Assembly (NCBI RefSeq): GCF_019884785.1
Contig: NZ_CP082326.1
Span: 2,721,355 to 2,785,354, forward strand
Source of the DNA: Crassaminicella profunda
Lineage (GTDB): Bacteria; Bacillota; Clostridia; Peptostreptococcales; Thermotaleaceae
Direction of reading: 5' to 3'
Length of the DNA: 64,000 bases
This document shows, piece after piece, positions 2,926-47,579 of the stretch. The first letter of the stretch is position 1, and the number at the start of each line of letters is the position of its first letter. The notes beneath the pieces were generated by a model, which made no database searches, was not told the origin of the DNA, and saw nothing but the letters and a program-made list of their open reading frames with translations. The position numbers and the translations under genes were made by a program.

Positions 2926-2978
2926 AAAAAATCTCCCATCCCTAAGACACAAATATTTATGTCTTAGGGACGAGAGAC
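2926..2978 (-). terminator. T-box terminator hairpin
   Basis: The inverted repeat TGTCTTAGGGA (2960-2970) and TCCCTAAGACA (2939-2949), extended by GAGA/TCTC pairs, is followed on the reverse strand by six T residues at 2931-2926. It competes with the T-box antiterminator. Confidence 0.9.
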
Positions 2979-7171: not shown

Positions 7172-7201
7172 TTAAACATCCTCCCTTATTATTTTTATAT
7201 T

Positions 7202-9687: not shown

Positions 9688-9692
9688 ATTTC

Positions 9693-10731: not shown

Positions 10732-10789
10732 ATTAAAAGCTTCAATATATAAAAAATTGCTCCTTCCCGCCGAAGGCTTTCATTTTAAA

Positions 10790-10955
10790 TGATAGGCAGG
10801 TCTCCTGGCTTATGAATCATCTAGACTAATCACCTTCCCAATCCTAAAATCAGTGGTAAATCATTAGTCTATCTTCATTTACAGTAGCGGGGGCTGCGTT
10901 GGATTTTCACCTAACTTCCCTTTTCATTGATAATCCTCATTATCAACACCTAGCA
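10790..10955 (-). promoter_or_regulatory. Cobalamin (B12) riboswitch
   Basis: The reverse strand contains the conserved core in order: GGTG...GGGAA, GTGAAAATCC, GCAGCCCCCGCTACTGTAA, GGGAAGGTGATTAG, and the B12 box AGCCAGGAGACCTGCC. This is the adenosylcobalamin-type aptamer. It lies about 135 nt upstream of the Nik/Opp-type transporter operon with a terminator between, so uptake should be repressed when cobalamin is plentiful. Confidence 0.95.
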
Positions 10956-11074
10956 TTCTTTTAAAATTTTTTCTTTTCCGCCAACATATAATTGGCATTT
11001 GCTAATTAAATTATATCTTAAATGTTGTTTTTGTCAAATGCCATATTCAATTTTAATGATTATTTTTTATATTC

Positions 11075-11093
11075 AACAATGAATATCATTATC
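11075..11093 (-). promoter_or_regulatory. Fur-box-like 19-mer upstream of the riboswitch operon
   Basis: The reverse strand GATAATGATATTCATTGTT matches 16 of 19 positions of the classical Fur box GATAATGATAATCATTATC. It lies at about +11 to +29 of the predicted leftward start and abuts the -35 box of the rightward crp promoter, the same geometry as the site at 18966-18984. Confidence 0.6.
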
Positions 11094-11094
11094 T

Positions 11095-11123
11095 TTTACT
11101 TTCTATTCAAATTATACTATAAT
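11095..11123 (+). promoter_or_regulatory. Promoter of the Crp/Fnr gene at 11182 (back to back with leftward promoter)
   Basis: TTTACT (11095-11100), a 17-nt spacer and TATAAT (11118-11123) drive the rightward regulator gene. Immediately beside it ATTATA at 11111-11116 reads TATAAT on the reverse strand and is the likely -10 of the leftward riboswitch operon. Confidence 0.65.
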
Positions 11124-11138
11124 AAATTTAAGAAAACT

Positions 11139-11152
11139 GTATCTACTGATAC
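11139..11152. promoter_or_regulatory. Crp/Fnr-type operator GTATC-N4-GATAC
   Basis: The perfect dyad GTATCTACTGATAC (with outer T/A pairing as well) lies 22 nt upstream of the leftward -10 at 11116-11111, so it is centred near -41.5. It lies about 10 nt downstream of the rightward start. This placement suits activation of the transporter operon and autorepression of the regulator. Related sites are at 19031, 21807 and 25186. Confidence 0.7.
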
Positions 11153-11181
11153 ACTCTAATTTTTTTGAAAGGAAATTTATT

Positions 11182-11859
11182 ATGAATAAACTATTTATAT
11201 CGCTTCAAAACTCTAATTTATTTAAAGGAAAATCTTTAAATGAAATCAAAACTCTTTTATCAAAAATCATCTATAATGTTCAATCATATAAAGAAAATGA
11301 AATCATATTTTCTCCTCATCAGCTTGCTGATACAATGGGAATTATTTTATCTGGATCTATCGATATTGAACAGCTCTCTCCATCTGGAAAAATTATTATC
11401 CTCAAAAGAAAAAATAGTCCAGATTTAATTGCTGAACCATCACTATTTTCTAAATCAAAATATTATCCATCTACTGTTGCTGTATATAAATCTGCTAAAA
11501 TATTATTGATCCATAAAAATCAGCTTCTTAAATTATTTTTAATAGATAATGATATTATGTTAAACTTTTTAGAATCTGTATCTGATTCTATGCTTATATT
11601 AAAACATAAAATTTCTATTCTCTCTCTCAATTCTATACAAGAAAGAATAGTTGCATTTCTTATACATGCTTATAAAAATACTAATTCTACGGTGATTACT
11701 TTGCCTTTTTCAAAAAAAGCTTGGGCTGAATACATAAATGTTTCAAGAACTTCTCTTTCAAGAGAATTGAGAAATTTAGAAATAGAGGGAATTATATCTT
11801 TTGATAGGCACACTATAGAGATTAAAGATTTAGAAAAACTAGAAGAAATACTCTTTTAG
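11182..11859 (+). CDS. Crp/Fnr family transcription regulator (first of three)
   Basis: The 225-residue protein has an N-terminal cyclic-nucleotide-binding-like beta barrel (about residues 10-125, with IILSGSIDIEQLSPSGK), a long dimer helix, and a C-terminal winged helix with recognition helix VSRTSLSRELRNLE. No cysteines for an iron-sulfur cluster are clustered at the N-terminus, so the effector is unlikely to be sensed FNR-style. The canonical cAMP-binding arginine-glutamate motif is not evident. It is divergent from the cobalamin-riboswitch operon and is a paralogue of the gene at 19069. The ATG follows GAAAGGAAA. Confidence 0.88.
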   Translation: MNKLFISLQNSNLFKGKSLNEIKTLLSKIIYNVQSYKENEIIFSPHQLADTMGIILSGSIDIEQLSPSGKIIILKRKNSPDLIAEPSLFSKSKYYPSTVAVYKSAKILLIHKNQLLKLFLIDNDIMLNFLESVSDSMLILKHKISILSLNSIQERIVAFLIHAYKNTNSTVITLPFSKKAWAEYINVSRTSLSRELRNLEIEGIISFDRHTIEIKDLEKLEEILF

Positions 11860-11864
11860 CAAAC

Positions 11865-11889
11865 GAGAACCCTCGAAAAAAGGATTCTC
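11865..11889. terminator. Convergent hairpin between crp gene and ABC operon
   Basis: GAGAACCC/AGGATTCTC forms a short hairpin with an eight-base loop in the 44 nt between two converging genes. T runs are weak on both strands, so termination strength is uncertain. Confidence 0.45.
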
Positions 11890-11903
11890 TCTTATGTTTA
11901 ATT

Positions 11904-12602
11904 TCAATATTTTACAATACAATCCACAATTTCACTTCTTATTTTCATCAATGTTTCATCTTTTAAATTTCTTTCTCTCTTTAATTTTTTTATTTTAAAC
12001 TCCTTGATTATCTTCGTCGGTCTATTAGATAAAACTAAAATCCTATCTCCGAGCAAAAGGGCTTCATCTATTTCATGGGTAACAAATATAATTGAATTTC
12101 TCTTCATTTCCCAAAGGTTTAGTAAATGTTCAATCATAGTAAACCTTAAATTATAATCAAGAGATTTAAAAGGTTCATCCATCAGTAACAAATCGGCCTC
12201 ATAATTAAACCCTCTTGCAATAGAGCATCTTTGTCTCATTCCACCGCTCAAATTTACAGGATAATAATTTTCAAAACCTTCAAGACCAACCCTTTCAATC
12301 AATGCCTTTATTTGATCTTTTGTATTTTTTCTATTTACAATATGAATATTTTCATAAACGCTCTTCCAGGGTAACAATCGATCTTCTTGAAATACATAGC
12401 TGATATTTTTACTTTTGTTTACAAGCTCTCCTTTAGAGGGTGTTAAATTTCCTGATATCATATTGAGCATGGTAGATTTTCCACACCCAGATGGTCCAAT
12501 AATACAAAGAATCTCTTCTTCATTGACTTTTAGCGAAAAATCTTTTATTACAATAACCTTTCCAAATGCTTTTTCTATTTTGTTCATTTGCAAAATCATC
12601 AT
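11904..12602 (-). CDS. ABC transporter ATP-binding protein, SsuB/TauB-like
   Basis: The 232-residue protein is a single nucleotide-binding domain: Walker A GPSGCGKST, Q-loop YVFQEDRLLPWKSV, signature LSGGMRQRCSIARGF, Walker B LLLMDEPFKSLD and switch histidine VTHEIDEAL. The LLPWKSVYENI segment is typical of nitrate/sulfonate/taurine-type ATPases. The likely start is ATG 12602 with AAGGGGAAAG before it. This overlaps the upstream permease by 83 nt, a long overlap for an operon pair. It is the last gene of the operon that begins with the activase-like protein. Confidence 0.88.
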   Translation of the reverse strand: MMILQMNKIEKAFGKVIVIKDFSLKVNEEEILCIIGPSGCGKSTMLNMISGNLTPSKGELVNKSKNISYVFQEDRLLPWKSVYENIHIVNRKNTKDQIKALIERVGLEGFENYYPVNLSGGMRQRCSIARGFNYEADLLLMDEPFKSLDYNLRFTMIEHLLNLWEMKRNSIIFVTHEIDEALLLGDRILVLSNRPTKIIKEFKIKKLKRERNLKDETLMKIRSEIVDCIVKY

Positions 12603-13353
12603 TTTCTTTCCCCTTATTTCTAAAATCAAATACAAAATCTATTAGCTTTTGAGATAACCCTCCTAAAAAAATCACAATAATGGTCCACCCTAAAACCTTC
12701 CCTGTTTCTATATTCAATCGTGCATTGGTTATTTCTGCTCCAATTCCTGTGCTAGCGCTTAAAACCTCTCCCATGATCACTAATTTCCATCCTAATCCAA
12801 CAGCTATAGTTATTCCTGATTTGAAATAAGAATGGAGAGACGGAAGTGTAATCTCAAACAATCTATCCTTTTTTGAAAAATGAAAAACTCTTGCCATTTC
12901 AATGAGCTTAGGATCAATATTTTCAAATCCTTCTACAATATTGATAATCATTATAGGAATACTTGCAATAAATACAATAAACACTGTAGCTTGCCCATCT
13001 AACCCGAACCAAATCATTCCAAGTGCTAACCACGATATAGGTGGTGTAGCCTGTATAATATGAAATACAGGCTCAAATAAATTTTTTATTCTTTTGTATT
13101 CACCTATTGCTAATCCCAAAATACTCCCTAATAAAACAGCCCCTAAAAGACCTACAAAAAGTCTTTTTATAGTGATTAGCACATGACTTAGAAAATTCAT
13201 ATCACTTAAGACATTTCTTGTATCTTCCCATGTTTGAATAGGTCCTGGCAGGATTATGGGTGAATAAATGGTAGATAATCCTCCCCAAATGATCAACAAA
13301 ACAAACATTGTTTTAAAAATATCCCTACTTTTCTTCGTAATAATAATTTTCAT
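12520..13353 (-). CDS. ABC transporter permease, SsuC/TauC-like
   Basis: The 277-residue membrane protein has six hydrophobic segments, the family start region SPIILPGPIQTWEDTRNVL, and the EAA loop IEMARVFHFSKKDRLFEITL that meets the ATPase. The start is the ATG at 13353, 10 nt after GGAGGG; it overlaps the binding-protein gene by 29 nt. The C-terminal 25 or so residues after FVFDFRNKGK are hydrophilic and are encoded in the overlap with the ATPase gene. Confidence 0.87.
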   Translation of the reverse strand: MKIIITKKSRDIFKTMFVLLIIWGGLSTIYSPIILPGPIQTWEDTRNVLSDMNFLSHVLITIKRLFVGLLGAVLLGSILGLAIGEYKRIKNLFEPVFHIIQATPPISWLALGMIWFGLDGQATVFIVFIASIPIMIINIVEGFENIDPKLIEMARVFHFSKKDRLFEITLPSLHSYFKSGITIAVGLGWKLVIMGEVLSASTGIGAEITNARLNIETGKVLGWTIIVIFLGGLSQKLIDFVFDFRNKGKENDDFANEQNRKSIWKGYCNKRFFAKSQ

Positions 13354-14326
13354 CTGGAGTTTTCCCTCCAATGCTATCTGCTTTGAAATTTAAAAGGGTC
13401 TCATAATATTTTTCTAAATCCTTCTTTGCCTCATTAGCTTGTTTATACTTAAGTCCTAAGGTTGGCATAGATTTTTCTATTAACCCTTTATTTAAACCTA
13501 GATATTTTTCTACTAATTGTGCAGATTCTTTAGGGTTTTCTAATGTCCACTGAAGCGCTTTTTCATATTCCTTTTCAAATAATTGTACTAACTCTTTATT
13601 TTCACTTAAAAACTTATTATTTGTAACAATCCCTGCATTAGGAATATCATATTCCATTCCTTTTATTTTTTTCCACTCATCCATATAATCAAAAATTACT
13701 CTTACCTTTTCATTTCCCATCTTACTTGCTGTTATGAAGGGTTCGATGTTCATAGCATATTGGATTTGCCCTACCTTTACCATTTGTGCAATCTCTGACG
13801 GTGTTGAATAAATTATTTCAACATCCTTTCCAGCTTCTAATCCGTGTTCCTTTAATAAATATTGTGTAATAATATCAGGAGGAGCACTTTTAAAAGGAAT
13901 ATATAATTTCTTTCCTTTTAAATCTTTCCATTCATTGCAATTTGAATCTGTAGTTGATAAATACATAACGCCCCATGTATCTACATTCGTAAGCTTTATA
14001 TCTACACCTTTATTGTATAACTTAGCTGCTGTATTTACTGGTATAGCTAAAAATCCATAATCTGAGCTAGTAGCAATAGTCAATAGCTCTTCCACGCCAT
14101 TCCATATTTTAAAATCAATTTTCACATTTTCCCCTAATGCATTTGTTTCCATCATTCTTAGTAAAGGAATTGTAGGGGGTGCCTTTGGTCCACTCATAAC
14201 AATCTTTATTTCTTCTTTTTGTTTTTCAGCAGATACCTTCGTCTCTTTATTTTCTGATTGATTACAACCAAATAACATGGTTATACTTAGTACTGCAATC
14301 AAAAGTAATGCAATCTTATTCTTCAT
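13325..14326 (-). CDS. ABC transporter substrate-binding lipoprotein, SsuA/NMT1-like
   Basis: The 333-residue protein has a lipoprotein signal (ALLLIAVLSITMLFGC, cysteine at 21) followed by a two-lobed binding fold: VMSGPKAPPTIPLLRMMET, GFLAIPVNTAAKLYNKG, WKDLKGKKLYIPFKSAPPDI, and INIEPF-like MNIEPFITASKMG. This pattern fits the nitrate/sulfonate/aromatic binding-protein class (COG0715). The ligand is not evident. It sits between two cupin genes and its own permease, in an operon with a Fur-box-like site at the front. Confidence 0.87.
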   Translation of the reverse strand: MKNKIALLLIAVLSITMLFGCNQSENKETKVSAEKQKEEIKIVMSGPKAPPTIPLLRMMETNALGENVKIDFKIWNGVEELLTIATSSDYGFLAIPVNTAAKLYNKGVDIKLTNVDTWGVMYLSTTDSNCNEWKDLKGKKLYIPFKSAPPDIITQYLLKEHGLEAGKDVEIIYSTPSEIAQMVKVGQIQYAMNIEPFITASKMGNEKVRVIFDYMDEWKKIKGMEYDIPNAGIVTNNKFLSENKELVQLFEKEYEKALQWTLENPKESAQLVEKYLGLNKGLIEKSMPTLGLKYKQANEAKKDLEKYYETLLNFKADSIGGKTPDENYYYEEK

Positions 14327-14340
14327 GATTTTTCAACTCC

Positions 14341-14688
14341 TTATTTTTGCGCCTTCACAATAATAATCATTATTTTAGATTTTTCTACTACATCAATACT
14401 ATGAAGTACATCTGGTGGTACAACAATTGTTTTTCCTTCCTTTAAAATAAATTTTTTATCTTCATCCATCACTACTTCAGCCTTTCCTTCGTATACATAA
14501 ATCATTGTATCTCCAGGCATTGAATAAGCACTTACTCCTTCTCCTTGTTCAAAGGCAAAAAGGGTCATACTAAAATCTTCTCTTTGTACAAGGGTCCTAC
14601 TTTCAACCCCTCCATCTACATACCCTATCAAATTTTTAAAATCTAACACTTTCTCAAAATCTATATTTTTGATATATTTTTCTTTCAT
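14341..14688 (-). CDS. Small cupin protein (second of pair, first His replaced)
   Basis: This 115-residue single-domain cupin is about 50 percent identical by eye to its neighbour at 14707. The usual metal-site histidine in motif 1 is a tyrosine here (SAYSMPGD against STHSAPGD in the neighbour), while the aspartate, the YVYEG glutamate and the motif 2 histidine (PPDVLH) are kept. It may therefore bind metal differently or not at all. GGAGC precedes ATG 14688; a GTG one codon earlier is possible. It is part of the activase-cupin-ABC operon. Confidence 0.82.
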   Translation of the reverse strand: MKEKYIKNIDFEKVLDFKNLIGYVDGGVESRTLVQREDFSMTLFAFEQGEGVSAYSMPGDTMIYVYEGKAEVVMDEDKKFILKEGKTIVVPPDVLHSIDVVEKSKIMIIIVKAQK

Positions 14689-14706
14689 CACAAAAGCTCC
14701 TGTCTA

Positions 14707-15063
14707 CTATTTATTTTCTTTCTGAGGTTTTACAACCGTAAGTAACATCTTGAATTTTTCAATTGATTCTAATGCATGGGGAATATTAGCAGGCATAACG
14801 GCTGTCTGTCCTTCTTTTAATACAACTTTTGTATCTTCTCCAATTGTAACATTCACACTACCTTCCATAACATACACCATGGCGTCTCCCGGTGCAGAAT
14901 GTGTACTTAGTCCCTCTCCTTGATCAAATGCAAATAAAGTAATACTCAAATCATTTCTTTGTACAAGGGTTTTACTACTTACTCTTCCCTCTGCATAATT
15001 AACTAAGTTCTTCAGCTCTAAAACTTCCTCAAAAGGTATGTTTTTTAAATATTTTTCTTGCAT
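14707..15063 (-). CDS. Small cupin protein (first of pair)
   Basis: The 118-residue protein is one cupin barrel, with motif 1 THSAPGDAMVYVMEG (His55, Asp60, Glu67) and motif 2 LKEGQTAVMPANIPHA (His96). These could hold one metal ion. Small cupins of this type have no single function; roles range from ligand sensing to isomerase chemistry. It lies 19 nt after the activase-like gene and 18 nt before its paralogue, which indicates tandem duplication within an operon. GGAGGAG precedes the ATG. Confidence 0.85.
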   Translation of the reverse strand: MQEKYLKNIPFEEVLELKNLVNYAEGRVSSKTLVQRNDLSITLFAFDQGEGLSTHSAPGDAMVYVMEGSVNVTIGEDTKVVLKEGQTAVMPANIPHALESIEKFKMLLTVVKPQKENK

Positions 15064-15082
15064 TTTTACTCCTCCTCATTTT

Positions 15083-18000
15083 TTATATATAATAGATGAA
15101 ATTTTGTATTTTTTCATCATTTCCACTATGTAAGCTTCCATCAAAACACAACTCTATATTAGGTTGAATCAATATATTTTTATCTTGTTCCTTTAAGAGC
15201 TTTAAAATAGTTCCTGTATTTTCATACATTGAACTCATCAAAAGTATGCCATTCATATGCTCTGGACATCTTAATGGTTTCACCATTCTATATCTACCAT
15301 TTCCGCCACAATATAATGGTAATTTTTCATCAGCCATTTTGATCATTTCATCTATATCTTTATCAAATGGACTATATACGCTAAGTTCCTTTGAAACTTG
15401 CTTCATGATTTCATTCATTTTACTCAAAAGTTTCTTCATTACTGAATGATCCTTTTTCTCTTTTCTTAAAAAGTCCACCCATTTAAAATACATGACCTCT
15501 GAAACAGGTTCATAATAAACTTTATTTTTTTGCTCCAATTTCTCAAGTTGATTATGATTGAGAAAAGGATTAAATATTATACTTATTTCTCCTAACACAT
15601 AAATTGATTTTTCATATTTTATTTTTGATAATTTTTCGTATATGCTATTAGCTATCATTCTCAATGAATATTCATTAAAAGTTCCTTCTTCTATCTCCTT
15701 CAATATTCTTTTTAAATATTCCTCTCGATCTTCTCTAGGAGAAGTCATAATAAGATCTCCTGCAATAATCATTAATAAAAATTCTTCCTCATATTTATCA
15801 TCTTCTAGTAAATCTTCCATAAATGGTGATTCTATTCTAACATCCTCATAGCCTTCAAGCTTAATCTTTTGATCTAGTAATCTTCCGTATTGTCCAAAGG
15901 TTTCACTTCCTTCTGTTTGTGGAACCCATATACATGCATTTGCTTTGTTTATTTCTTGAATCTTTGAGAATACATCCCCTAATAGTGCAGTTAAGGATAA
16001 ATACTCCTTTGATAGGGTATACTTTTTTCCAACTTCTAAAGATTTTTCATCTGTAGGTGAAAGAAGATTTACATGCATACCTTTTTTTCTTAATATGCCC
16101 TGCAATAAATGACTATAGGGATACAAATAAGGTATATACAATTGTTCATCATCCCTATAACTTTTTGTTATATCCTTATCTTTTTTCTTTACTTCTTCAT
16201 TCATTTTATTATTTTTCAAGCTTTCTATAAAAGCCTCTAATCTAGTCATAACGCCAACATTAGATGCATGCTCATCTACTTCTATATGTAGATAAGGCTT
16301 CTCACCCATTTCTTCCTTAAAATAATGACTCAATATTGTATCTGGTCCACATCCATGATTCGTAAGATATATAGCATAGAGGTTCTTATTCTCTTTTACA
16401 ATCTTTGCTCCTGATAAAATATGTTGACCAAAAGGCCAATACATATTCGGATAATCATCAGATAAATCATAGCTATGAGCTGGAAGATTTGATAAAGTAA
16501 GGACTTTATGTCCCATTTCTCTCAACCTTCTTGGAATTTCCATATTCAGCCCTTCATCTGCGATTCCATAAGCTCTTGTAATGATGACAAATGCTTTTTC
16601 ATCCTCTTTAAGAGAATCCATTAGCCCTTGTCCTAATGTTTCAACTTCTTCTTCAAATTGTTTAAACCTTTTTAGTCCTTTTTCCAACGCTAATGATGTC
16701 TCCCCTTTATTCTTTCCAAGTTTTTTCCCTAAATCTAGTAGTGTTTGCATCATATGTCCTTTGCCAAACTTAAAAGATAATGCTGGAGATAAAAGTTGAA
16801 TTCCTTTTTCTTTCAATTCCATAGTTTTTTCCACAATTTTAGGTGCTGTTTGCATATATACACACGCATAATCTTCTCTCGTCTTAGAGATGGGATGCTT
16901 CATCGTATACAAGCTAGGCAAAAATATATAATCTACCCCTTTTTTAATCAATGCTGCTACATGACCATTAATCAATTTTATAGGATAACAAGTCTCATCT
17001 AGTGCATATTCTTGACTTAATGCGATAATATCCTTATTGGTTTCTTCCGATAATAAAACATTAAATCCTAAAGTTTTAAAAAATTCATTGAACAAAGGAA
17101 ATAGCTTGTGTATGAAAAGAACCCTTGGAATTCCTATGGTAAGTTTTTTATCCTCTAGATCTCTTGTATATCCCTTTAAAAAGAATTTATTGATTTCATC
17201 TTCCATATCTAGTGACTCACTAGCTTCTATTCTTGTTTCTTTTTTATTTTCTAATTCTTCTTTTGTTAATAACGCTACACCATAAGCTCCTGTAACACTG
17301 AAAAATGGTGGTACGCTGATTTTCTTTCCAAGTACGGCTCTAAAAGCATTAACCACTGCTTGATTATGAGCAATTCCTCCTTGTAAAAAGATTTTATTTC
17401 CTATCTTTTTATTCATAACGACTCTATTTAGATAATTGTTTACAATTGAATAACTAAGCCCTGCTGTAATATTTTCTTTACTTTTCCCTTGTGCTAAAGC
17501 CTTTGAAATATTTCCTTCTATAAAAACAGTACATCGCTCTCCTAAATTCAAAGGTTTATTTCCTTTTAAAGCAATTTTTTCATATTCTTCTATAGGAATT
17601 TTTAATTTTTTTGCTTGTTCCTCAATAAATGAACCTGTTCCAGCAGCACAAATTTTATTCATTTCAAAATCAACAACACAGCCATCCTGTATACTGATAT
17701 ATTTTGAATCTTGACCCCCTATCTCAAAAATCGTATCTACATCCTGATCCATCTCAATAGCACCCTTTGCCTGTGCTGTAATCTCATTTACAATTAAATC
17801 TGCTTTAATTTTTCTTCCAATCATAGTTCTCCCGGAACCAGTTGTACCTATTCCTATTACATTGAGCCTTCCATTAAACTCCTCTTGAATAGATTTGAGA
17901 CCTATATTTACAGATTTTTCAGGATTCCCTTTCGTTCTTATATATCTATATGACAATACCTCTTTATTTTTATCAATTAGTACCAGATTCGTACTCGTAG

Positions 18001-18952
18001 AACCGATATCAATTCCCATATACCCATCAATCATATTTTCTTTTACAATTTTACAAATATGCTTATCCTTATAATCATGCTTCCCATATTCTTGAAGAGG
18101 TTCATAAAAGCAACTGTCCTCATTTTTTACTTTAATACTTTCTAATTCTTCAAATATATTTTGAAGATTGCATAAGACATTGTTTTTTATGGCTAGAAGG
18201 GCTGCACCTAAAGCTCCCTTATTTGAACAGTCCTCCGTAATCATCAACTCATCATCAGAGAAGCTAAAAATTTCTTTTAATGCTCTTACTACGCCTTGAT
18301 TATTTGCTACACCCCCTACAAACATAACAGGCTTTGCAATCTTCATACGCTGTACAACATTCCCTTTATAATTCCTAGCAAGGGCATAAGAAAGTCCAAG
18401 CAATATATCTTCGATTTTAACGCCCTCTTGCTGGTGATGAATCATATCTGTCTTAGAAAACACACTACAGCGTCCCGCAATTCTAGGTATTTGGGTAGCC
18501 TTTTGAATATAGCTTGAATATTCCTCTAACTGAATCCCTAGTCGTGATACTTGTTCCTCTAAGAAAGAACCAGTTCCAGCAGAACAGCTTGAATTCATAG
18601 AAAATTCCATGTGTTCCTTAGCATTTTTAGAAAAACCTGTAATATACCTAGAACTCTGAGCACCTATTTCCATAATAGATTGAACATTCTCGTCCGTATG
18701 TATAACCCCTTCGGTAAGTGCTGAAATATCATTTATCTGATATTTATTCAATACTTTTGCCTGTTCTCCCGTAACGCCTATATAACAATTTTTTATACTC
18801 AATTTATTTTCAATATTTTTTAATTGCTTCTTTAGTAAACCCATACTGTTTCCATAATGAAAAATATTACTTTTAAAAACCTGTTCTTTCACATTATTCA
18901 GTACTACACATTTTAATGTAGCATATCCAATATCTACTCCAATGCTATACAT
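15083..18952 (-). CDS. Giant tandem 2-hydroxyacyl-CoA dehydratase activase-like protein (BadF/BadG + DUF2229)
   Basis: The 1289-residue protein has two ASKHA ATPase domains (about 1-260 and 311-570; SIGVDIGYATLK and MGIDIGSTSTNLV), then a DUF2229 region (LTIGIPRVLFIHKLFPLFNE) and an HgdB-like C-terminal part. Each ATPase domain keeps two cysteines 39 residues apart, in CSAGTGSF/RCSVF (Cys123, Cys162) and CAAGTGSF/RCTVF (Cys435, Cys474). In HgdC this pair from each of two subunits binds one [4Fe-4S] cluster, so here one chain could form the cluster alone. HgdC drives ATP-dependent electron transfer to a dehydratase; the partner here is unknown. ATG 18952 lies 5 nt after GGAGG; an ATG four codons upstream contains that site. 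Confidence 0.9.
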   Translation of the reverse strand: MYSIGVDIGYATLKCVVLNNVKEQVFKSNIFHYGNSMGLLKKQLKNIENKLSIKNCYIGVTGEQAKVLNKYQINDISALTEGVIHTDENVQSIMEIGAQSSRYITGFSKNAKEHMEFSMNSSCSAGTGSFLEEQVSRLGIQLEEYSSYIQKATQIPRIAGRCSVFSKTDMIHHQQEGVKIEDILLGLSYALARNYKGNVVQRMKIAKPVMFVGGVANNQGVVRALKEIFSFSDDELMITEDCSNKGALGAALLAIKNNVLCNLQNIFEELESIKVKNEDSCFYEPLQEYGKHDYKDKHICKIVKENMIDGYMGIDIGSTSTNLVLIDKNKEVLSYRYIRTKGNPEKSVNIGLKSIQEEFNGRLNVIGIGTTGSGRTMIGRKIKADLIVNEITAQAKGAIEMDQDVDTIFEIGGQDSKYISIQDGCVVDFEMNKICAAGTGSFIEEQAKKLKIPIEEYEKIALKGNKPLNLGERCTVFIEGNISKALAQGKSKENITAGLSYSIVNNYLNRVVMNKKIGNKIFLQGGIAHNQAVVNAFRAVLGKKISVPPFFSVTGAYGVALLTKEELENKKETRIEASESLDMEDEINKFFLKGYTRDLEDKKLTIGIPRVLFIHKLFPLFNEFFKTLGFNVLLSEETNKDIIALSQEYALDETCYPIKLINGHVAALIKKGVDYIFLPSLYTMKHPISKTREDYACVYMQTAPKIVEKTMELKEKGIQLLSPALSFKFGKGHMMQTLLDLGKKLGKNKGETSLALEKGLKRFKQFEEEVETLGQGLMDSLKEDEKAFVIITRAYGIADEGLNMEIPRRLREMGHKVLTLSNLPAHSYDLSDDYPNMYWPFGQHILSGAKIVKENKNLYAIYLTNHGCGPDTILSHYFKEEMGEKPYLHIEVDEHASNVGVMTRLEAFIESLKNNKMNEEVKKKDKDITKSYRDDEQLYIPYLYPYSHLLQGILRKKGMHVNLLSPTDEKSLEVGKKYTLSKEYLSLTALLGDVFSKIQEINKANACIWVPQTEGSETFGQYGRLLDQKIKLEGYEDVRIESPFMEDLLEDDKYEEEFLLMIIAGDLIMTSPREDREEYLKRILKEIEEGTFNEYSLRMIANSIYEKLSKIKYEKSIYVLGEISIIFNPFLNHNQLEKLEQKNKVYYEPVSEVMYFKWVDFLRKEKKDHSVMKKLLSKMNEIMKQVSKELSVYSPFDKDIDEMIKMADEKLPLYCGGNGRYRMVKPLRCPEHMNGILLMSSMYENTGTILKLLKEQDKNILIQPNIELCFDGSLHSGNDEKIQNFIYYI

Positions 18953-18965
18953 ATCTTCCTCCATT

Positions 18966-18984
18966 GATAATGATTATCTTTATC
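18966..18984 (-). promoter_or_regulatory. Fur-box-like 19-mer in front of the activase operon
   Basis: The reverse strand GATAAAGATAATCATTATC matches 18 of 19 positions of the classical Fur box. It begins 14 nt upstream of the activase ATG and lies at about +12 to +30 of the predicted leftward transcript. It also abuts the -35 box of the rightward crp promoter. Confidence 0.75.
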
Positions 18985-18985
18985 C

Positions 18986-19014
18986 TTTACGTTTCATTAT
19001 CATTATAGTATAAT
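18986..19014 (+). promoter_or_regulatory. Promoter of the Crp/Fnr gene at 19069 (back to back with activase promoter)
   Basis: TTTACG (18986-18991), 17 nt, and TATAAT (19009-19014) form the rightward promoter. ATTATA at 19002-19007 is TATAAT on the reverse strand and is the likely activase-operon -10. The block ATTATA-N-TATAAT is shared with 11111-11123. Confidence 0.68.
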
Positions 19015-19030
19015 AATTTCATTATTACAC

Positions 19031-19044
19031 GTATCTGGTGATAC
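19031..19044. promoter_or_regulatory. Crp/Fnr-type operator GTATC-N4-GATAC
   Basis: The perfect dyad GTATCTGGTGATAC lies 23 nt upstream of the leftward -10 (centre near -42) and just downstream of the rightward start. The arrangement copies that at 11139-11152. Confidence 0.72.
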
Positions 19045-19068
19045 TATTTTTAAAATTTGGAGGTTAAA

Positions 19069-19755
19069 ATGAAAAATATTTCTGGTTCTCTTATTCATTC
19101 TGTTCTTTTTAAAAATAAAACTCAAGAAGAAATCAATAATACTTTATCTTCCATAGAATACATTATTAAAGATTATAACAAGGGAGATTTAATTTTTAGC
19201 GTAGATCAAGCAACTAAATATATTGGGATTATTTTAAAAGGATCTATTGAGGTGCAAAAGAATTTAGCTTCTGGAAAAATTATCAGTATTCTTCACAAAA
19301 AGAAAGGAGATCTATTTGGAGAAGGTTCTGTTTTTTCAAAAACAAATACATATCCTTGCAACATTTTTGCTAAAACAAGAAGTACTATTCTTCTTATTCA
19401 TAAGAAAAATATGCTCACGCTATTAAGTAATGACCCTTCTTTATTAGCTAATTTTTTAAGTTCATTTGCTAATCGAGTGCTTTTATTAAATTTAAAAACC
19501 GAATTATTATCTTACTCATCCATTCAACAAAAAATCGCTTTTTCCCTACTCTATCTGATGGACGAGTACAAATGTGATCATTCTATTCTTTTGCCTTATT
19601 CAAAAAAAACATGGTCAGAACACTTGAATGTGTCCAGACCATCTTTATTTAGAGAACTAAAAGCTCTCTGTGAACAGGAAATTATCCATATACAAGATCG
19701 AATCATTACCATCTTAAACAAAGATCATTTGGTAAATCTATTATATAATCAATAA
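19069..19755 (+). CDS. Crp/Fnr family transcription regulator (second of three)
   Basis: This 228-residue paralogue of the 11182 protein has an effector barrel with GIILKGSIEVQKNLASGK and GDLFGEGSVFSKTNTYP, a dimer helix, and a winged helix with recognition helix VSRPSLFRELKAL. It is divergent from the activase-cupin-ABC operon. The GTATC dyad between the two suggests that it activates that operon and limits its own expression. ATG 19069 follows GGAGGTTAA; a TTG 12 nt earlier overlaps that ribosome site. The effector is unknown. Confidence 0.88.
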   Translation: MKNISGSLIHSVLFKNKTQEEINNTLSSIEYIIKDYNKGDLIFSVDQATKYIGIILKGSIEVQKNLASGKIISILHKKKGDLFGEGSVFSKTNTYPCNIFAKTRSTILLIHKKNMLTLLSNDPSLLANFLSSFANRVLLLNLKTELLSYSSIQQKIAFSLLYLMDEYKCDHSILLPYSKKTWSEHLNVSRPSLFRELKALCEQEIIHIQDRIITILNKDHLVNLLYNQ

Positions 19756-19776
19756 TCTATTATTTATAAATCTTTT

Positions 19777-20090
19777 TTATAGTTCATCCTCTGCAATAGG
19801 CAGGTTATATTTTAAAAACATCTTTTTTATACGTTCTATATTTTCCCTTGTAGAAGGTTTTATATGCTTTAGTGAATAAGTTAAATTGAGTTCCTCCCAT
19901 TTATCAACGTCCATCTCATGATAAGGAATAACCTCTACTTTCTCCACATTATTTAAACCTCTAAGAAATTGACACAAGTCATCTACATCTTCTTCATCAT
20001 CAGAATATTCGAGTACAAGTACATACCGAATCCACGTGGGAATATTTTTTTCATTTAAATATTTTGCAAACTGAAGTATTTTTTTATAGT
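19777..20090 (-). pseudogene. pflA: Remnant of pyruvate formate-lyase activating enzyme (C-terminal part only)
   Basis: From just inside the hcp stop codon an open reverse-strand frame reads [20 protein letters not shown], then IRYVLVLEYSDDEEDVDDLC, and ends with VEKVEVIPYHEMDVDKWEEL and a short tail. This is the C-terminal third of a PflA-type radical-SAM activase. The CX3CX2C cluster motif and the rest of the barrel are missing, and no pflB is nearby. A piece of about 95 codons abuts hcp, which suggests a deletion or insertion joined hcp to a broken pfl locus. An internal TTG/ATG-less start makes translation doubtful. Confidence 0.8.
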
Positions 20091-21727
20091 AATTGTTCTA
20101 AATCTTCATTCACACTATTTATCCCATTAATTCCAAAAGTCTCAACAAGAACTTTTGCTACATTTGGTGATAAGAATGCTGGAAGTGTTGGTCCTAATTT
20201 AATATTTTTCACGCCTAGGTAAAGTAATGCAAGCAGTACAATTACAGCCTTTTGCTCATACCACGCAATATTATAAGCAATTGGTAATTCATTTACATCA
20301 TTTAACTCAAATACTTCTTTTAATTTAAGAGCGATGACTGCTAATGAATAGGAGTCATTACATTGTCCTGCATCTAGGACTCTTGGTATTCCACCAATAT
20401 CACCTAAATCTAATTTATTATAACGGTATTTTGCACATCCAGCTGTTAAAATTACGGTATCCTTTGGAAGCTTTTCTGCAAATTCTGTATAATAATCTCT
20501 TGATTTCATTCTTCCATCACACCCAGCCATTACAAAGAACTTTTTAATCGCTCCACTCTTTACAGCTTCAACTACCTTGTCCGCTAATGCAAATACTTGT
20601 GCGTGAGCAAATCCTCCAACGATTTTGCCATTTTCTATTTCTGTAGGTGAATTTGATTTTTTAGCATGTTCTATAATTTCAGTGAAATCTTTTTCTCCAT
20701 TTTCGTTTAATTCAATATGTTTACATCCTGGATATCCAGATGCACCTGTAGTATATATTCTTTCAATATGCTCAGATTTTGGTGGTACAATACAATTCGT
20801 TGTGAAAAGAATCGGTCCATTAAAGGTTTCAAATTCTTCTTTTTGCTTCCACCAGGCATTTCCATAATTTCCTACAAAATGATCATACTTTTTAAATGCT
20901 GGATAATAATGAGCTGGTAACATTTCTCCATGAGTATATACATCTACCCCTGTACCCTCTGTTTGCTTTAGTAATTGTTCTAAATCTTTTAAATCATGAC
21001 CAGATATTAATATGGCAGGATTATTTCTAACACCAATATTTACTTCAGTAATTTCTGGATTACCATAAGTACCTGTATTAGCAGCATCTAATAGCGCCAT
21101 TACATCTACACCGTATTTTCCTGTTTCTAAAGTAAGCGCTACTAATTCATCTGCACTTAATGTATCATCTAACGTAGCCACTAATGCTTTTGTAATAAAT
21201 GCATATATTTCTTCATTTTCTTTTCCTAGATTATAAGCATGTTCTGCATAAGCTGCCATTCCTTTTAATCCATAGATGATTAATTCTCTTAGAGAACGTA
21301 CATCTTCATTTTCCGTAGCTAAAACGCCTACTTGAACAGAATCTGCTTTTGCTTTTATTGCAGATACTGAATCCGCTGTCCATGTAGCTGCATCATGTAA
21401 ATCATCAAGAGTTACCCCTTTACTTCTTAATTCTTTTTTCATTTCCTCTCTTAAAGCTAATCCTTCTTTAATTTTTTTAATAAACACTTCTTCATCGAAG
21501 TTAGCATTTGTAATCGTCATAAATAAACCATTCATGGTGAAGTGGTCGGCTGCTAGAAATTTAGCTCCTACTTTACTTCCCTCTTGTGTAACGACTGCAA
21601 TTCCCTTTAAGGTATAAATCATTAAATCTTGTAAATTTGAAACCTCTTCTGGCTTTCCACAGACTCCTTTAATGGTACAACCTGTTCCTTTTGCGGCTTC
21701 TTGACATTGATAGCAAAACATACTCAT
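20084..21727 (-). CDS. hcp: Hybrid cluster protein (Hcp), class III
   Basis: The 547-residue protein carries the N-terminal cluster cysteines FCYQC, then GCTIKGVC (Cys5, Cys8, Cys17, Cys23), and the hybrid-cluster ligands in later segments such as [40 protein letters not shown] and [10 protein letters not shown]. Hcp was called hydroxylamine reductase; in E. coli it reduces nitric oxide and S-nitrosylates proteins. The gene has its own likely operator and -10 box in the 107-nt gap after the zinc-ribbon gene, so it may be transcribed both alone and with the upstream operon. A second hcp is at 38806. Confidence 0.96.
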
Positions 21728-21778
21728 TTAAACGTCCTCCTTTATTTAAATTGTTTTATTCTTTTCTTCTATGGGTCT

Positions 21779-21784
21779 ATCATA
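21779..21784 (-). promoter_or_regulatory. Probable -10 box of hcp
   Basis: TATGAT on the reverse strand lies 22 nt downstream of the GTACC-N4-GGTAC dyad, the same spacing as at two other operators in this window. No good -35 box is visible, as expected for an activator-dependent promoter. Confidence 0.55.
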
Positions 21785-21802
21785 TAATGATTGAATAATA
21801 TT

Positions 21803-21824
21803 TTCGGTACCCTAAGGTACCGAA
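21803..21824. promoter_or_regulatory. Perfect 9-bp dyad, probable Crp/Fnr-type operator of hcp
   Basis: TTCGGTACC-CTAA-GGTACCGAA is a perfect inverted repeat. Its core GTACC-N4-GGTAC (21807-21820) is the same form as the GTATC-N4-GATAC sites with one symmetric base change. No T run follows on either strand, so it is unlikely to be a terminator. It is centred about 41.5 nt upstream of the predicted hcp start. Confidence 0.65.
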
Positions 21825-21834
21825 TAAATAATAT

Positions 21835-22077
21835 TTAATAATCTTTTCCTGCAGCTCTAACATTTTCTGGATCAAAGGCATGGCATGGCGTTACCCCATA
21901 AACCATCTTGCAATGGGGGCAATGATCCTCAAAGGTTTCCATATCAAAGGTTTCATCACATTCCTCACATTGAATTCTTAAAGGTACAGGCATATATTGC
22001 TTTGAAAATCCCATCATTCTAATTTTATCTACAACTTCTTTTCCTGTTTGAAAGCTTCCTGAGCATCCTTCGTGCAT
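21835..22077 (-). CDS. Small zinc-ribbon-like protein in Hcp operon
   Basis: The 80-residue protein has two CXXC knuckles (IQCEECDETF, Cys37/Cys40, and EDHCPHCKMVYG, Cys53/Cys56), as in a zinc ribbon or rubredoxin-like metal site, plus single cysteines at 5 and 65. The N-terminal MHEGCSGSFQTGKEVVDKIR is unlike ribosomal or transcription zinc ribbons. I do not recognise a named family. It lies 28 nt after the ATPase gene and before hcp, so a metal-binding role in the same module is a reasonable inference. Confidence 0.75.
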   Translation of the reverse strand: MHEGCSGSFQTGKEVVDKIRMMGFSKQYMPVPLRIQCEECDETFDMETFEDHCPHCKMVYGVTPCHAFDPENVRAAGKDY

Positions 22078-22105
22078 ATTTATTCTCCTCTCTTTTTTAT
22101 AAAAT

Positions 22106-23116
22106 TTATTTTTTCAGTCTTTCACCTTTTCTTAAGTTAGCTCTTAAACCACTGATAATTTTGTCCATTCTCTCAAGTTCTACTAATACTTCTTTTTCTT
22201 CCTCTTGCGTTTTGAGTACTTTATGAATTCCCCCATTTTTAATGACAATTCTTTTATCTGCCATCAAAGCTAAGGTAGGGTCATGGGTAGCCATAAGGAC
22301 TATTTTTTCTTCACTAACCAAAAGATTTAAAGCTCTTTTTCTATCTATTCCAGCATTCTCAATTTCATCAATTAAGACGATTGGAGAAGTACTAAGTATA
22401 GCTGTATCCGCAATCATTAAAGCTCTAGATTGTCCCCCACTAAGGCTGGTTATAGGCGTATCTAAGTTAAACTGCTCCCCTGCTAAATGATTTGCTGCGT
22501 CAATGATTTTTTGAATCACTTCTTCTTCATTTTGAATTAGCCTACTTTTAGCATGTAATTCTATAAACTCCTTTACGGTTAAATCCATGACAAAGTTCAT
22601 ATTTTGAGACAATTGTGCTACTAATTTATTAGAAGAGGAGAATCTCCATTTTTTATCTGGCTCCTTTTCATTAATTAAAATACTTCTTTCTGTAGGGGTA
22701 TCCCCATTGGCAGTCCATTCAATATCTGCTAGCAACCGACTTTTTCCTGAACCTGTAGGTCCTACGATTGAAACAATTTCTCCTTTGTGGATCGTAAGAC
22801 TTTCAAACTCTTCTTTTTCCCCATATTTGTTATTTCCTGCAATAATGGTCAATGAGTTTACTCCATCCTCTTCTTCTATTCCAAGAAAGGTTAACATCTC
22901 ATTCATATAAGCAATGAAATCTATTTTGATTTTTTCAATATCGATTGCCCATTCTTCTATTTCTTCTTCTGTGAAATGATTTAAATATTCTTCAAAGGTA
23001 TATTCATCATATCCGTCTATATTTAAATTGTTGTTTTCGAAAAAAGCAATGCTAAAAGGATATTTTTTCTCTAATGCTTTTATTTTCACTTTTTCTATTT
23101 CTTTTATATTAATCAT
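22106..23116 (-). CDS. Permease-less ABC-type ATPase with N-terminal extension
   Basis: The 336-residue protein has about 85 acidic, helical N-terminal residues and then one ABC domain: Walker A IVGPTGSGKS (near 118-127), signature LSGGQSRALMIADTAIL, Walker B IVLIDEIENAGID and switch histidine MATHDPTLALM. DEIENAG in place of DEPTSGLD is unusual for transporters. No permease is encoded nearby and the associated binding-protein-like gene lacks a signal peptide, which argues for a cytosolic role such as metal-cofactor assembly. ATG 23116 follows AGGTG by 6 nt and overlaps the GTPase gene; starts at 23122 or 23125 are possible. Confidence 0.82.
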   Translation of the reverse strand: MINIKEIEKVKIKALEKKYPFSIAFFENNNLNIDGYDEYTFEEYLNHFTEEEIEEWAIDIEKIKIDFIAYMNEMLTFLGIEEEDGVNSLTIIAGNNKYGEKEEFESLTIHKGEIVSIVGPTGSGKSRLLADIEWTANGDTPTERSILINEKEPDKKWRFSSSNKLVAQLSQNMNFVMDLTVKEFIELHAKSRLIQNEEEVIQKIIDAANHLAGEQFNLDTPITSLSGGQSRALMIADTAILSTSPIVLIDEIENAGIDRKRALNLLVSEEKIVLMATHDPTLALMADKRIVIKNGGIHKVLKTQEEEKEVLVELERMDKIISGLRANLRKGERLKK

Positions 23117-23813
23117 TTTCATCACCTAATTTCATTTTTCTAACATTTCCCATTTGATAGTCTTCTCCGATTCTTGTCTCTCCTAAGCAATAAGAGCACA
23201 GGGCTGAAGGCATGGAAAATCTTAATTGTTTTCCTTTTACTGTCTCTACGTCTTCCTTTTCATCATATAAAAGTGTACTTAATTCATATGCACCTTGTCC
23301 TGTTAATCCATTTACATGCATTGTTATTGCCTTAGGATTTACGGAATGAACCTTTGAAGCAAAGACTTCCCTTTCTGCTTGTGATACAATATCCCCTTTT
23401 GTAATCACTACAATATCTGCTGATTTTAACATAGGTCCTATTTTTTTAGGGGTATTGATTCCACTTAAATTGTCAATAACACAAATTGCCTGAATATCTT
23501 TAATGTATGGAGAGCAGCGATTACAAAGTCCTGCACTTTCTGTAATGAGTACATCTAGCTTTTCGTCTCTTCCCCACTGAACAACTTCTTCAATATTACT
23601 TACGAAATAATGGTCTGGACATAAAGACCCTGATAATCCTTTTTTAACGGGAACTCCTGCTTTTTTATAGTAAATATCATCATCTGTATACAAGCAGTCA
23701 AATTTTACTACTCCTACTTTTAAATCTCTTTCATGCAATGCATGAATAGTTTTTAGTATAATAGATGTTTTTCCTGATGAGGGGGGTCCTGATATAGTTA
23801 TTAAATTCATCAT
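23109..23813 (-). CDS. HypB/UreG-like (SIMIBI) GTPase with CXXC motifs
   Basis: The 234-residue protein starts with P-loop ISGPPSSGKTS, followed by a KFDCLYTDDD segment, ESAGLCNRCSPYIK, AICVIDNLSGIN, the base-recognition motif VITKGD and MHVNGLTGQGAYELSTLL. This order matches HypB/UreG GTPases that deliver nickel to hydrogenase or urease. CNRC and a C-terminal CSYC (SALCSYCLGE) give two CXXC pairs that could bind metal or a cluster. It overlaps the upstream gene by one base (TAATG) and the ATPase by a few bases, indicating tight co-translation. The target is unknown; Hcp is the nearest candidate. Confidence 0.82.
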   Translation of the reverse strand: MMNLITISGPPSSGKTSIILKTIHALHERDLKVGVVKFDCLYTDDDIYYKKAGVPVKKGLSGSLCPDHYFVSNIEEVVQWGRDEKLDVLITESAGLCNRCSPYIKDIQAICVIDNLSGINTPKKIGPMLKSADIVVITKGDIVSQAEREVFASKVHSVNPKAITMHVNGLTGQGAYELSTLLYDEKEDVETVKGKQLRFSMPSALCSYCLGETRIGEDYQMGNVRKMKLGDEND

Positions 23814-25045
23814 TACACCTCCTTAATACTTTCGTTAAATAATTTTTCACATTTTTTTATTAATTTTCCTATGTCGTTATTTTTAATGTAGTCCCATCCA
23901 ATCCACATATACTTATGTTCTTTTGAAATCATATTGTCCACATTTGGATTGACACTTGGGAACTTTCCATTATGTGATAATATTTCACCTATCTCTTTTG
24001 AAGCAAAGAAATCTACAATAGGCTTTAATTTTTCTTTTTTCTCCTTTTTACTTAGTAAAAATATAGGACTAATAATGGCTCCATCCTTTGGCCATACAGC
24101 TCTCATAGGGCCTCCTCTTTTCGTCATCTTTGTAAAGAAATAAGGCATGATTGTAACGATTGGCTTTTGTGCTTTTTTAATATGAGATTTTACCATTTCT
24201 GATGGATGCATACTTCTTAATAAGCTTTTTCCTAATTTTTTCACACCATCTTCTCCATATTTTTGATGGATATTTAATAAGATGGCATTGAATAAATCAA
24301 AATCTCCTATAGGTAAACTCACTTTATTTTCAAAGCTTTCACTGAGTAAATCTTCCCAGCTTGTTGGCATAACTCTTCCATTCAATTCTTCTGTATTCAC
24401 TAAGAATACTGCTGGAACAACGCCGATCATTGAATATTGATTGTCAGGGTCTTTTAGACTTATATTTTCATTTTCAAAATCTCTATTATAATGAGTCATC
24501 TCTGTAAGATCTTCAAATACATTTTCTGATTTGTATTTACCGATTAAATCCTTATCGAAAAACAAATCAAATCCTGCTGATATGAATAAATCTGCTAATA
24601 CATCTGCTGAACCTGTTTTTTCTAAAGATTCTTTCAGCCAATCTACTCCCATAGATGCAGCCTTTAATTCATAGCCTATACTCATATTCAATTTTTCTTT
24701 ATTTTCTTCTAAAAAGCTTTGAAAAGCTTCCATCAAAGGTACTCTTACAGGACAAGGTAGTATGCCTTCAATTCTTACATCTGTCTTTTCTTGTATCTTA
24801 TTTGTTTCTAATAACTCATTTTGGTTGTTTTCAATGAGTTCAATTAATTGTTCGGAGAAAGTATTAACATTTATTTTTTTCATGTTTAAAGCAGTCTCTA
24901 ATGTAATAGCTTTTCCCATGGTTTTTCTCTTATTTTCATCTTTTATATTTTCAAAGCCAATAGAAACTAATAAGTCAATGGCCTCTTTATATTTTTCAGT
25001 AATATCAAACAATGTATCTTTTTGATCAAAATATCTATTTTCCAT
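23813..25045 (-). CDS. Cytosolic solute-binding-protein-like protein with N-terminal DUF1858 domain
   Basis: The 410-residue protein has no signal peptide or lipobox. Residues about 10-65 (FDITEKYKEAIDLLVSIGFE, then GKAITLETALNMKKINVN) match DUF1858, a small domain family that includes the Hcp-associated redox-disulfide proteins, but its usual cysteine pair is absent. Residues about 90-400 resemble an iron/spermidine-type binding-protein fold (GILPCPVRVPLMEAF, ADLFISAGFDLFF, PTSWEDLL, MPYFFTKMTKRGGP, FFASKEIGEIL). It heads the operon running to hcp. ATG 25045 follows GGAGG by 7 nt. The function is unknown; binding of a small ligand or metal complex in the cytosol is inferred. Confidence 0.78.
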   Translation of the reverse strand: MENRYFDQKDTLFDITEKYKEAIDLLVSIGFENIKDENKRKTMGKAITLETALNMKKINVNTFSEQLIELIENNQNELLETNKIQEKTDVRIEGILPCPVRVPLMEAFQSFLEENKEKLNMSIGYELKAASMGVDWLKESLEKTGSADVLADLFISAGFDLFFDKDLIGKYKSENVFEDLTEMTHYNRDFENENISLKDPDNQYSMIGVVPAVFLVNTEELNGRVMPTSWEDLLSESFENKVSLPIGDFDLFNAILLNIHQKYGEDGVKKLGKSLLRSMHPSEMVKSHIKKAQKPIVTIMPYFFTKMTKRGGPMRAVWPKDGAIISPIFLLSKKEKKEKLKPIVDFFASKEIGEILSHNGKFPSVNPNVDNMISKEHKYMWIGWDYIKNNDIGKLIKKCEKLFNESIKEV

Positions 25046-25157
25046 CACATTTCCTCCTTATAGATAAAATTTTCTATAAACGCTTATCCATTCTTTAAAT
25101 TTTTCACTTATTTTTAAAGTTTCTTTATTTATTTTTATTGGTTTTTTCTTTGAACTC

Positions 25158-25163
25158 ATTTTA
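25158..25163 (-). promoter_or_regulatory. Probable -10 box of DUF1858-GTPase-ATPase operon
   Basis: TAAAAT on the reverse strand lies 22 nt from the GTATC-type dyad at 25186-25199, giving a start near 25151 and an untranslated leader of about 105 nt. Confidence 0.5.
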
Positions 25164-25185
25164 GCATCTTATATTTATTATTTCC

Positions 25186-25199
25186 GTATCCTCTGTTAC
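25186..25199. promoter_or_regulatory. Crp/Fnr-type operator GTATC-N4-GTTAC
   Basis: CGTATC-CTCT-GTTACG is a 16-bp dyad with one mismatched pair. It is centred about 41.5 nt upstream of the predicted operon start, in the 515-nt gap before the DUF1858 gene. The remainder of that gap is AT-rich and holds only a terminator. Confidence 0.6.
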
Positions 25200-25564: not shown

Positions 25565-26254
25565 CTATATATTTACTTTTAATTCTTCTAAATCAATAAT
25601 TTCAAAGGAAGATCTATAAAAATCAATCATCCCTTCCTCCTTCATTTTGACCAATTCTCTTGACAAGGATGGTCTAGATACATTTAAAAATTCCGCTAGT
25701 TCATTTCTCTTTAATGGAATTATAAATTTATTTTTCCCAATTCGATTATATTGTTCTAATAAATAATTGCTTATTTTACTTCTAATGCTTTTCATGACTA
25801 AGTATTCAATCTTTCTATTGAGATTAAGTGCCTTTTGTGAAACAATTTTCAGCATATTTTGTATTAATAATTTATGTCCTATACACATTTTAGGACAATT
25901 CCCCAAAATCTTTTCTGTAGGTAAAAATAATACAGTACAATCTGTGATAGCAATAACTGTAGCAGGCCACTCATTCTTATCAGAAAAAGCAACAATTTCA
26001 CCAAATATATTTCCTTCATTTAGTTTTGCAATGATTACTCGGTCTCCTGCTACATTTTCTTTTGTAACAATTACTTCTCCTTCTACAATAATTCCTATCC
26101 CTGTAAATTTATTTTGAGCTATAGTAATGTATTCTTTTTTTTTGTAAGATACTTTATTAGGTCTTAAACAAGATAACATCTTACTCAATTCATTTACTTC
26201 TATATTCTCAAATAATTTCACCTTGTGTAATATATTTATCCACCTAGTATACAT
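25565..26254 (-). CDS. Crp/Fnr family transcription regulator (third of three, HcpR-like candidate)
   Basis: The 229-residue protein has an effector barrel (GIGIIVEGEVIVTKENVAGD, EGNIFGEIVAFSDKNEWPAT), a dimer helix and a winged helix with recognition helix VSRPSLSRELVKM, nearly the same as in the other two regulators. It contains cysteines but no clear FNR cluster motif. It is transcribed after an EamA transporter gene and lies directly upstream of the Hcp-linked operon, so it is a good candidate for control of hcp; Crp/Fnr proteins named HcpR do this in other anaerobes. ATG 26254 lies 6 nt after AAGGAG; earlier ATGs at 26290 and 26287 lack a better site. Confidence 0.87.
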   Translation of the reverse strand: MYTRWINILHKVKLFENIEVNELSKMLSCLRPNKVSYKKKEYITIAQNKFTGIGIIVEGEVIVTKENVAGDRVIIAKLNEGNIFGEIVAFSDKNEWPATVIAITDCTVLFLPTEKILGNCPKMCIGHKLLIQNMLKIVSQKALNLNRKIEYLVMKSIRSKISNYLLEQYNRIGKNKFIIPLKRNELAEFLNVSRPSLSRELVKMKEEGMIDFYRSSFEIIDLEELKVNI

Positions 26255-26292
26255 GCATTTCTCCTTCGTATAAATGTTATCCTTCATCAAAC

Positions 26293-47449: not shown

Positions 47450-47470
47450 AAAGTCGAACAGAATATTTTT

Positions 47471-47562: not shown

Positions 47563-47579
47563 ATACATAAAATACTATT

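Follow-up and report, generated by a model that had tools for sequence, protein, structure and literature searches.

Does a single regulon unite the four promoters that share a GTANC-N4-GNTAC dyad in a 64,000-nucleotide (nt) stretch of the Crassaminicella profunda genome (contig NZ_CP082326.1, positions 2,721,355 to 2,785,354; the whole stretch is called the window and is numbered from its first letter), or are they controlled separately? The dyads precede a transporter operon, an activase-cupin-ABC operon, the hybrid cluster protein gene hcp and a DUF1858 operon. An earlier analysis of the letters alone (the sequence-only reading) had proposed one regulon for all four. The present analysis favors, with a probability of about 0.7, a different answer: the dyads are class II operators of HcpR2-like Crp/Fnr proteins that form two small circuits, A and B, of which one is Fur-gated. 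The operators, -10 boxes and regulators are as follows.

11139..11152, minus strand: transporter (opp-like) promoter operator, class A, GTATC-AGTA-GATAC
11111..11116, minus strand: transporter operon -10, TATAAT, 22 nt from the dyad
19031..19044, minus strand: activase promoter operator, class A, GTATC-ACCA-GATAC
19002..19007, minus strand: activase operon -10, TATAAT, 23 nt from the dyad
21807..21820, minus strand: hcp promoter operator, class B, GTACC-TTAG-GGTAC
21779..21784, minus strand: hcp -10, TATGAT, 22 nt from the dyad
25186..25199, minus strand: DUF1858 operon operator, class B, GTAAC-AGAG-GATAC
25158..25163, minus strand: DUF1858 operon -10, TAAAAT, 22 nt from the dyad
11182..11859, plus strand: Crp1, Crp/Fnr regulator, helix VSRTSLSRE, clade A
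19057..19755, plus strand: Crp2, Crp/Fnr regulator, helix VSRPSLFRE, clade A
25565..26290, minus strand: Crp3, HcpR2-like Crp/Fnr regulator, helix VSRPSLSRE

A sequence check located all four dyads, and the gaps to the leftward -10 boxes, where the sequence-only reading had placed them, and domain matches confirmed its three Crp/Fnr regulators. Crp3 has both the Crp/Fnr sensor domain and the helix-turn-helix domain, and the start of Crp2 is likely the ATG at 19069 behind GGAGG. The class II Crp/Fnr position proposed earlier is borne out by the spacing, with the dyad roughly 22 nt upstream of the -10 and replacing the -35; activation itself is a prediction.

The dyad pattern was found five times in the window compared to an expectation of 0.21, and five or more copies occurred in 0 of 100 shuffles, a figure that is biased because the pattern was derived from these same sites. 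The fifth copy (41517-41530) lies within an open reading frame (ORF) at 40577-42262. Across the 4.59 Mb of the genome, the bare dyad has 75 copies per strand vs. 40 for a backward control. When the pattern was extended to dyad-N22-TANNNT, five genomic copies were obtained. Three are window sites, the activase site falling out at its gap of 23; one of the other two is in a 596-amino acid (aa) ORF and one is about 860 nt from the nearest leftward gene. With four matches for the backward control, there is no enrichment in the raw count, and raw genomic counts in either form were rejected as uninformative. The case for the dyads rests instead on their clustering, the quality of the -10 boxes and conservation. 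A dyad combined with a well-placed -10 at a gene start was found in the genome only at these four promoters, the activase site being taken at gap 23.

Conservation was evaluated upstream of orthologous genes. The activase protein was searched in 98 genomes of the order and 17 long-activase loci were fetched first. The sequence GTATC-N4-GATAC lies within 500 nt upstream in 14 of these 17, although the search pattern left position 4 free, and in 16 of all 19 long-activase places (the first 17 plus L165 and L166; the split-gene locus L164 of genome G017 was also counted). Relatives in this way bear out the dyads of the sequence-only reading. Two loci, L156 (G064) and L157 (G056), have no exact dyad, but a degenerate GTTGC-N4-GATAC was seen by eye at a gap of 22, and L166 has neither an exact nor a degenerate dyad upstream. 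A scan of 148 genomes for GTATCNNNNGATAC-N10-40-TATAAT returned 61 rows vs. 24 with the backward control. The gap is 22 nt in 24 of the 61, where about 2 per gap would be expected if gaps were even, and the next commonest gaps have 4 rows each. The binomial probability of this excess, 3e-20, overstates the case because many rows are orthologues and at least one of the gap-22 rows (G112) sits inside an ORF. In two further loci (L207 818-1489 in G022 and L208 685-1374 in G033) GTATC-N4-GATAC lies 22 nt from TATAAT before the genes of a Fe/Mn superoxide dismutase and a DUF2249 protein, a hint that the theme may be stress in other families. Dyads of the form GTAAC-N4-GATAC, with the same half-site mix as the DUF1858 operator, also lie before a cupin-side gene in three genomes (L033 2663, L160 15508 and L164 11797 in G010, G028 and G017, respectively).

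It is possible that one or more of the regulators bind all four dyads and drive the four operons as one set. The common GTANC-N4-GNTAC pattern and spacing, the Ser-Arg found in all three recognition helices, and the genome-wide restriction of well-placed dyads to these four promoters would all fit a single regulon. However, the operators fall into two classes without overlap. The symmetric GTATC/GATAC form was found in 17/17 matched activase or transporter operators vs. 0/16 matched DUF1858 or hcp operators. Moreover, in a tree of 63 regulators Crp1 and Crp2 belong, with the activase-linked regulators, to clade A (support 99/97), outside the hcp-linked regulators, and Crp3 groups with the hcp-linked HcpR2-type regulators, a placement whose support (83/93) is weak in a tree that was drawn open. 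The local pairing of regulator and operon is also retained in relatives: Crp1 is beside the transporter operon in three genomes, the window arrangement being repeated in L167 and L172, and Crp2 is beside the activase. In G042, a genome of another family, a Crp1 of 62% identity is divergent to oppB/oppC, and a dyad lies there at 22 nt from a TATAAT box. Genome G006 has the Crp2-activase and Crp3-DUF1858 pairs, and a Crp1 orthologue was not found there. In G007 (91% complete) Crp3 is the only one of the three regulators found and the DUF1858 and hcp sites are retained, with no full-length activase found, which means that circuit B occurs there alone. Together with the Fur-type box described below, which is confined to circuit A, these observations speak against the earlier claim of one regulon and make it unlikely, although crosstalk among the circuits through similar operators is possible.

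The Crp1 group (window, L045 and L172, all transporter-linked) is monophyletic (96/94) and adjoins the activase-linked regulators of L156 and L157; Crp1 therefore looks like an activase regulator that was recruited to the transporter. A genome scan with Crp2 as the query returned one locus only, 98% identical, in a Marinisporobacter metagenome-assembled genome.

The two classes were also compared with the recognition helices, numbered after E. coli CRP from R180 as given by Rodionov et al. (2005, PMC1274295). Among the 30 of 63 regulators with a dyad near the start, the other 33 being left uncounted, the residue before the invariant helix Arg is Ser with GTATC/GATAC in 21 of 21 cases and Gln, Glu or Pro with GTAAC/GTTAC in 9 of 9. 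As judged from the tree, this match largely follows a single split. Crp3 lies in the other clade, has Ser at this position and goes with mixed GTAAC/GATAC sites, which makes it a second case in part. The residue at CRP position 181 is Pro in Crp2 and Crp3 and Thr in Crp1, which thus lacks the Pro that marks HcpR2.

Predicted promoters of the two clade A regulators lie next to the dyads on the opposite strand.

11095..11123, plus strand: predicted crp1 promoter, TTTACT-N17-TATAAT, ending 15 nt before the dyad
18986..19014, plus strand: predicted crp2 promoter, TTTACG-N17-TATAAT, ending 16 nt before the dyad

A regulator promoter of the form TTTACN-N17-TANAAT is found near the dyad in 3/3 transporter promoters. 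The dyad directly follows the expected start of the crp1 and crp2 transcripts and autorepression is therefore predicted. The possibility was considered that the proteins are repressors throughout, that is, that the divergent regulator on the dyad blocks one or both promoters and the 22-nt spacing was inherited without being activating. A protein bound directly downstream of the predicted crp1 and crp2 promoters would indeed block them. However, when read along the operon strand the dyad stands in the place of the -35 at a fixed spacing to the -10, which fits activation, and in Clostridioides difficile disruption of hcpR lowers hcp according to PMC12915319. General repression is accordingly the least probable of the alternatives considered, and improbable in itself.

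A feature overlooked in the sequence-only reading is a Fur-type box at the two class A promoters. Over the start region, the sequence matches the Fur consensus at most positions of two putative sites.

11075..11093, minus strand: Fur-box-like 19-mer of the transporter promoter, GATAATGATATTCATTGTT, 16/19
18966..18984, minus strand: Fur-box-like 19-mer of the activase promoter, GATAAAGATAATCATTATC, 18/19

At a threshold of at least 14 matching positions, the 19-mer is present in 15/18 activase promoters (0.33 expected) and 3/3 transporter promoters (0.10 expected), compared to 0/7 DUF1858 or hcp promoters. The 15-mer TGATAATNATTATCA, with at most two mismatches, is present in 9/17 activase promoters (0.21 expected) and in 0/9 DUF1858 and 0/9 hcp promoters. 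In the window genome, 16 such 15-mers per strand were found at no more than one mismatch vs. 6 for the control, the activase box being included, and three exact copies adjoin a feoB-like gene, a DUF3793/SBP_bac_6 pair and an FMN oxidoreductase gene. Instead of being Fur sites, these A/T-rich GATAAT boxes could belong to a different protein of the Fur family or reflect the composition of the promoters; there are five Fur-family matches in the genome and the transporter boxes are imperfect. However, in the 18 of 21 class A promoters that match, the box has a nearly fixed position downstream of the -10, 38-49 nt after the dyad. Furthermore, the class B promoters have no box and the same motif adjoins the feoB-like gene. 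A role other than Fur binding is thus considered unlikely, and about as doubtful as the single regulon.

Several observations weigh against two HcpR2-like circuits with Fur gating. The related genomes are not independent, so the shuffle and binomial figures overstate certainty, and the shuffles were Markov-sampled rather than exact. With the exact pattern as the only search, the dyad was found at 4/23 hcp loci and 12/23 DUF1858 loci, and hcp in G006 has no separate dyad. The regulator promoter is found near the dyad in 8/18 activase promoters and none is clear in the rest. The activase loci L155 and L159 have no adjacent divergent clade A regulator. As for the boxes, that of the transporter fails as a 15-mer (three mismatches, shuffle p 0.06-0.17), and 3/18 activase promoters lack a Fur match.

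The assignment of the four operons in the sequence-only reading agrees with the ORFs and domain matches, and its cobalamin riboswitch with an Rfam match.

5588..10655, minus strand: Opp/Nik-type ABC transporter operon with oppB, oppC, fused ATPases and SBP_bac_5
10778..10968, minus strand: cobalamin riboswitch in the transporter leader, Rfam RF00174, 118.5 bits
11904..15063, minus strand: two cupins and an SsuA/NMT1-like ABC transporter, after the activase
15083..18964, minus strand: activase, 1293 aa, with two BcrAD_BadFG domains, DUF2229 and a weak HGD-D match
20084..21727, minus strand: hcp, hybrid cluster protein (Pfam Prismane)
21835..25048, minus strand: DUF1858/SBP_bac_6 protein, CobW/HypB-type GTPase, ABC ATPase and an 80-aa protein

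The corrinoid side of the theme of the sequence-only reading is weak. The riboswitch is present in the transporter leaders of the window genome and L167, but it was not found in the leader of G042 (L172), where the dyad is the same. Of the activase neighborhoods (17 stretches of 20 kb, L150-L166, two of them shorter), 15/17 have a Crp-type gene that is adjacent and divergent, one of which (L166) is a long branch; a cupin is present in 12/17 and an SsuA/NMT1-type binding protein in 14/17. A module of CobW GTPase, ABC ATPase and solute-binding protein shares the stretch with the activase in 5/17 (L150, L153, L156, L159 and L160), as it does in the window, and this co-location suggests a linked function. 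The hcp dyad was also considered as a terminator and rejected, the sequence having no T run after the hairpin in the leftward direction. The window has a second hcp-like gene (match 38815-40440), which shares 53% identity with the first and is not preceded by the dyad within 500 nt. Other leaders found in the window with Rfam are a T-box (2963-3237), a TPP riboswitch (47467-47575) and a SAM riboswitch (54125-54228).

The operators, their spacing and conservation, the regulator clades and the boxes are features of the sequences themselves; from them we infer binding, activation, autorepression and an iron response. In circuit A, Crp1 at the transporter operon and Crp2 at the activase-cupin-ABC operon would each bind GTATC-N4-GATAC between the divergent genes and, once bound, would activate the leftward operon. 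The same dyad, just past the regulator's own promoter, would allow Crp1 and Crp2 to damp their own genes, and the Fur-type box beyond the operon -10 would add repression by iron. In the transporter leader of the window genome, the cobalamin riboswitch is a further element. In circuit B, which has no Fur box, Crp3 would drive the DUF1858 operon from a GTAAC/GATAC-type operator and hcp from one of the GTACC/GGTAC type.

The class A promoters with their Fur-like box suggest a small iron-starvation gene set around a little-studied activase. A more extended interpretation is tentative and, taken as a whole, doubtful, if slightly less so than the single regulon. The activase-cupin-SsuA-like ABC module, which in many genera of the order has a dedicated divergent Crp/Fnr protein and a Fur-type box, might be an unrecognized iron-starvation system in which an ATP-driven low-potential reductase is combined with an importer, for example for the uptake or reductive use of metal complexes. 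The residue before the helix Arg might set base 4 of the half-site, Crp1 might be one of these regulators that was taken over by a metal or corrinoid transporter, and Crp3 might sense redox state or nitric oxide via a different site containing its four invariant Cys (7/7). A widely kept module would thereby gain a regulatory context, with a dedicated Crp/Fnr activator and an iron-type box, HcpR2-like regulators would be offered a simple helix-to-operator rule, and the same regulator family in anaerobes would be divided into an hcp branch and an iron-linked branch.

The HcpR of Porphyromonas gingivalis (PDB 9DAY, PMC12750200) is a sequence homologue of Crp1, Crp2 and Crp3. Its heme ligand Met68 is replaced by Lys in Crp3, Lys in Crp2 and Gln in Crp1 in an alignment that assumes an inferred offset of 14 between the 9DAY chain and native numbering, and heme sensing via this residue was not supported. 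In Crp3 and six relatives, Cys 41, 118, 132 and 136 and His139 are invariant (7/7 clade members), and the corresponding positions are not conserved columns in clade A. This set is a possible redox or cluster site, as far as an alignment indicates, unlike the N-terminal motif of FNR.

The HcpR2 regulon has already been described with a 5-N4-5 dyad, GTAACnnnnGTTAC, and in C. tetani a divergent HcpR2 paralog is linked to a permease-ferredoxin operon (PMC1274295). The window system resembles it in the Crp/Fnr family, the helix R-P (Crp2 and Crp3), the 5-N4-5 dyad and the hcp target. It differs in the half-sites, which are GTATC, GTAAC/GATAC or GTACC/GGTAC, in having two of three regulators in a separate clade tied to the activase and transporter, and in the Fur-type box of the clade A-linked promoters. 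The Crp3 sites (GTAAC-N4-GATAC and GTACC-N4-GGTAC) do not match GTAACnnnnGTTAC and Crp3 is therefore called a relative of HcpR2 rather than a strict member.

The HcpR of C. difficile (PMC12915319) likewise acts on hcp, with one local target operon. Among the genes changed there, a putative site was described only at frdX-hcp, and the text available reports no activase or transporter branch, unlike the window. Among the papers listed in literature searches, none placed an activase operon of this kind under Fur or HcpR, although an earlier RegPrecise prediction is possible. A parallel by description is ssuA2B2C2-CD2992 of C. difficile (PMC6311696), whose expression rises when iron is low and when fur is mutated. 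The authors found no Fur box there and called the fourth gene iron hydrogenase-like, in which it differs from the activase operon; however, both place a sulfonate-type (SsuA-family) ABC transporter of a clostridium under iron control, observed in C. difficile and predicted here.

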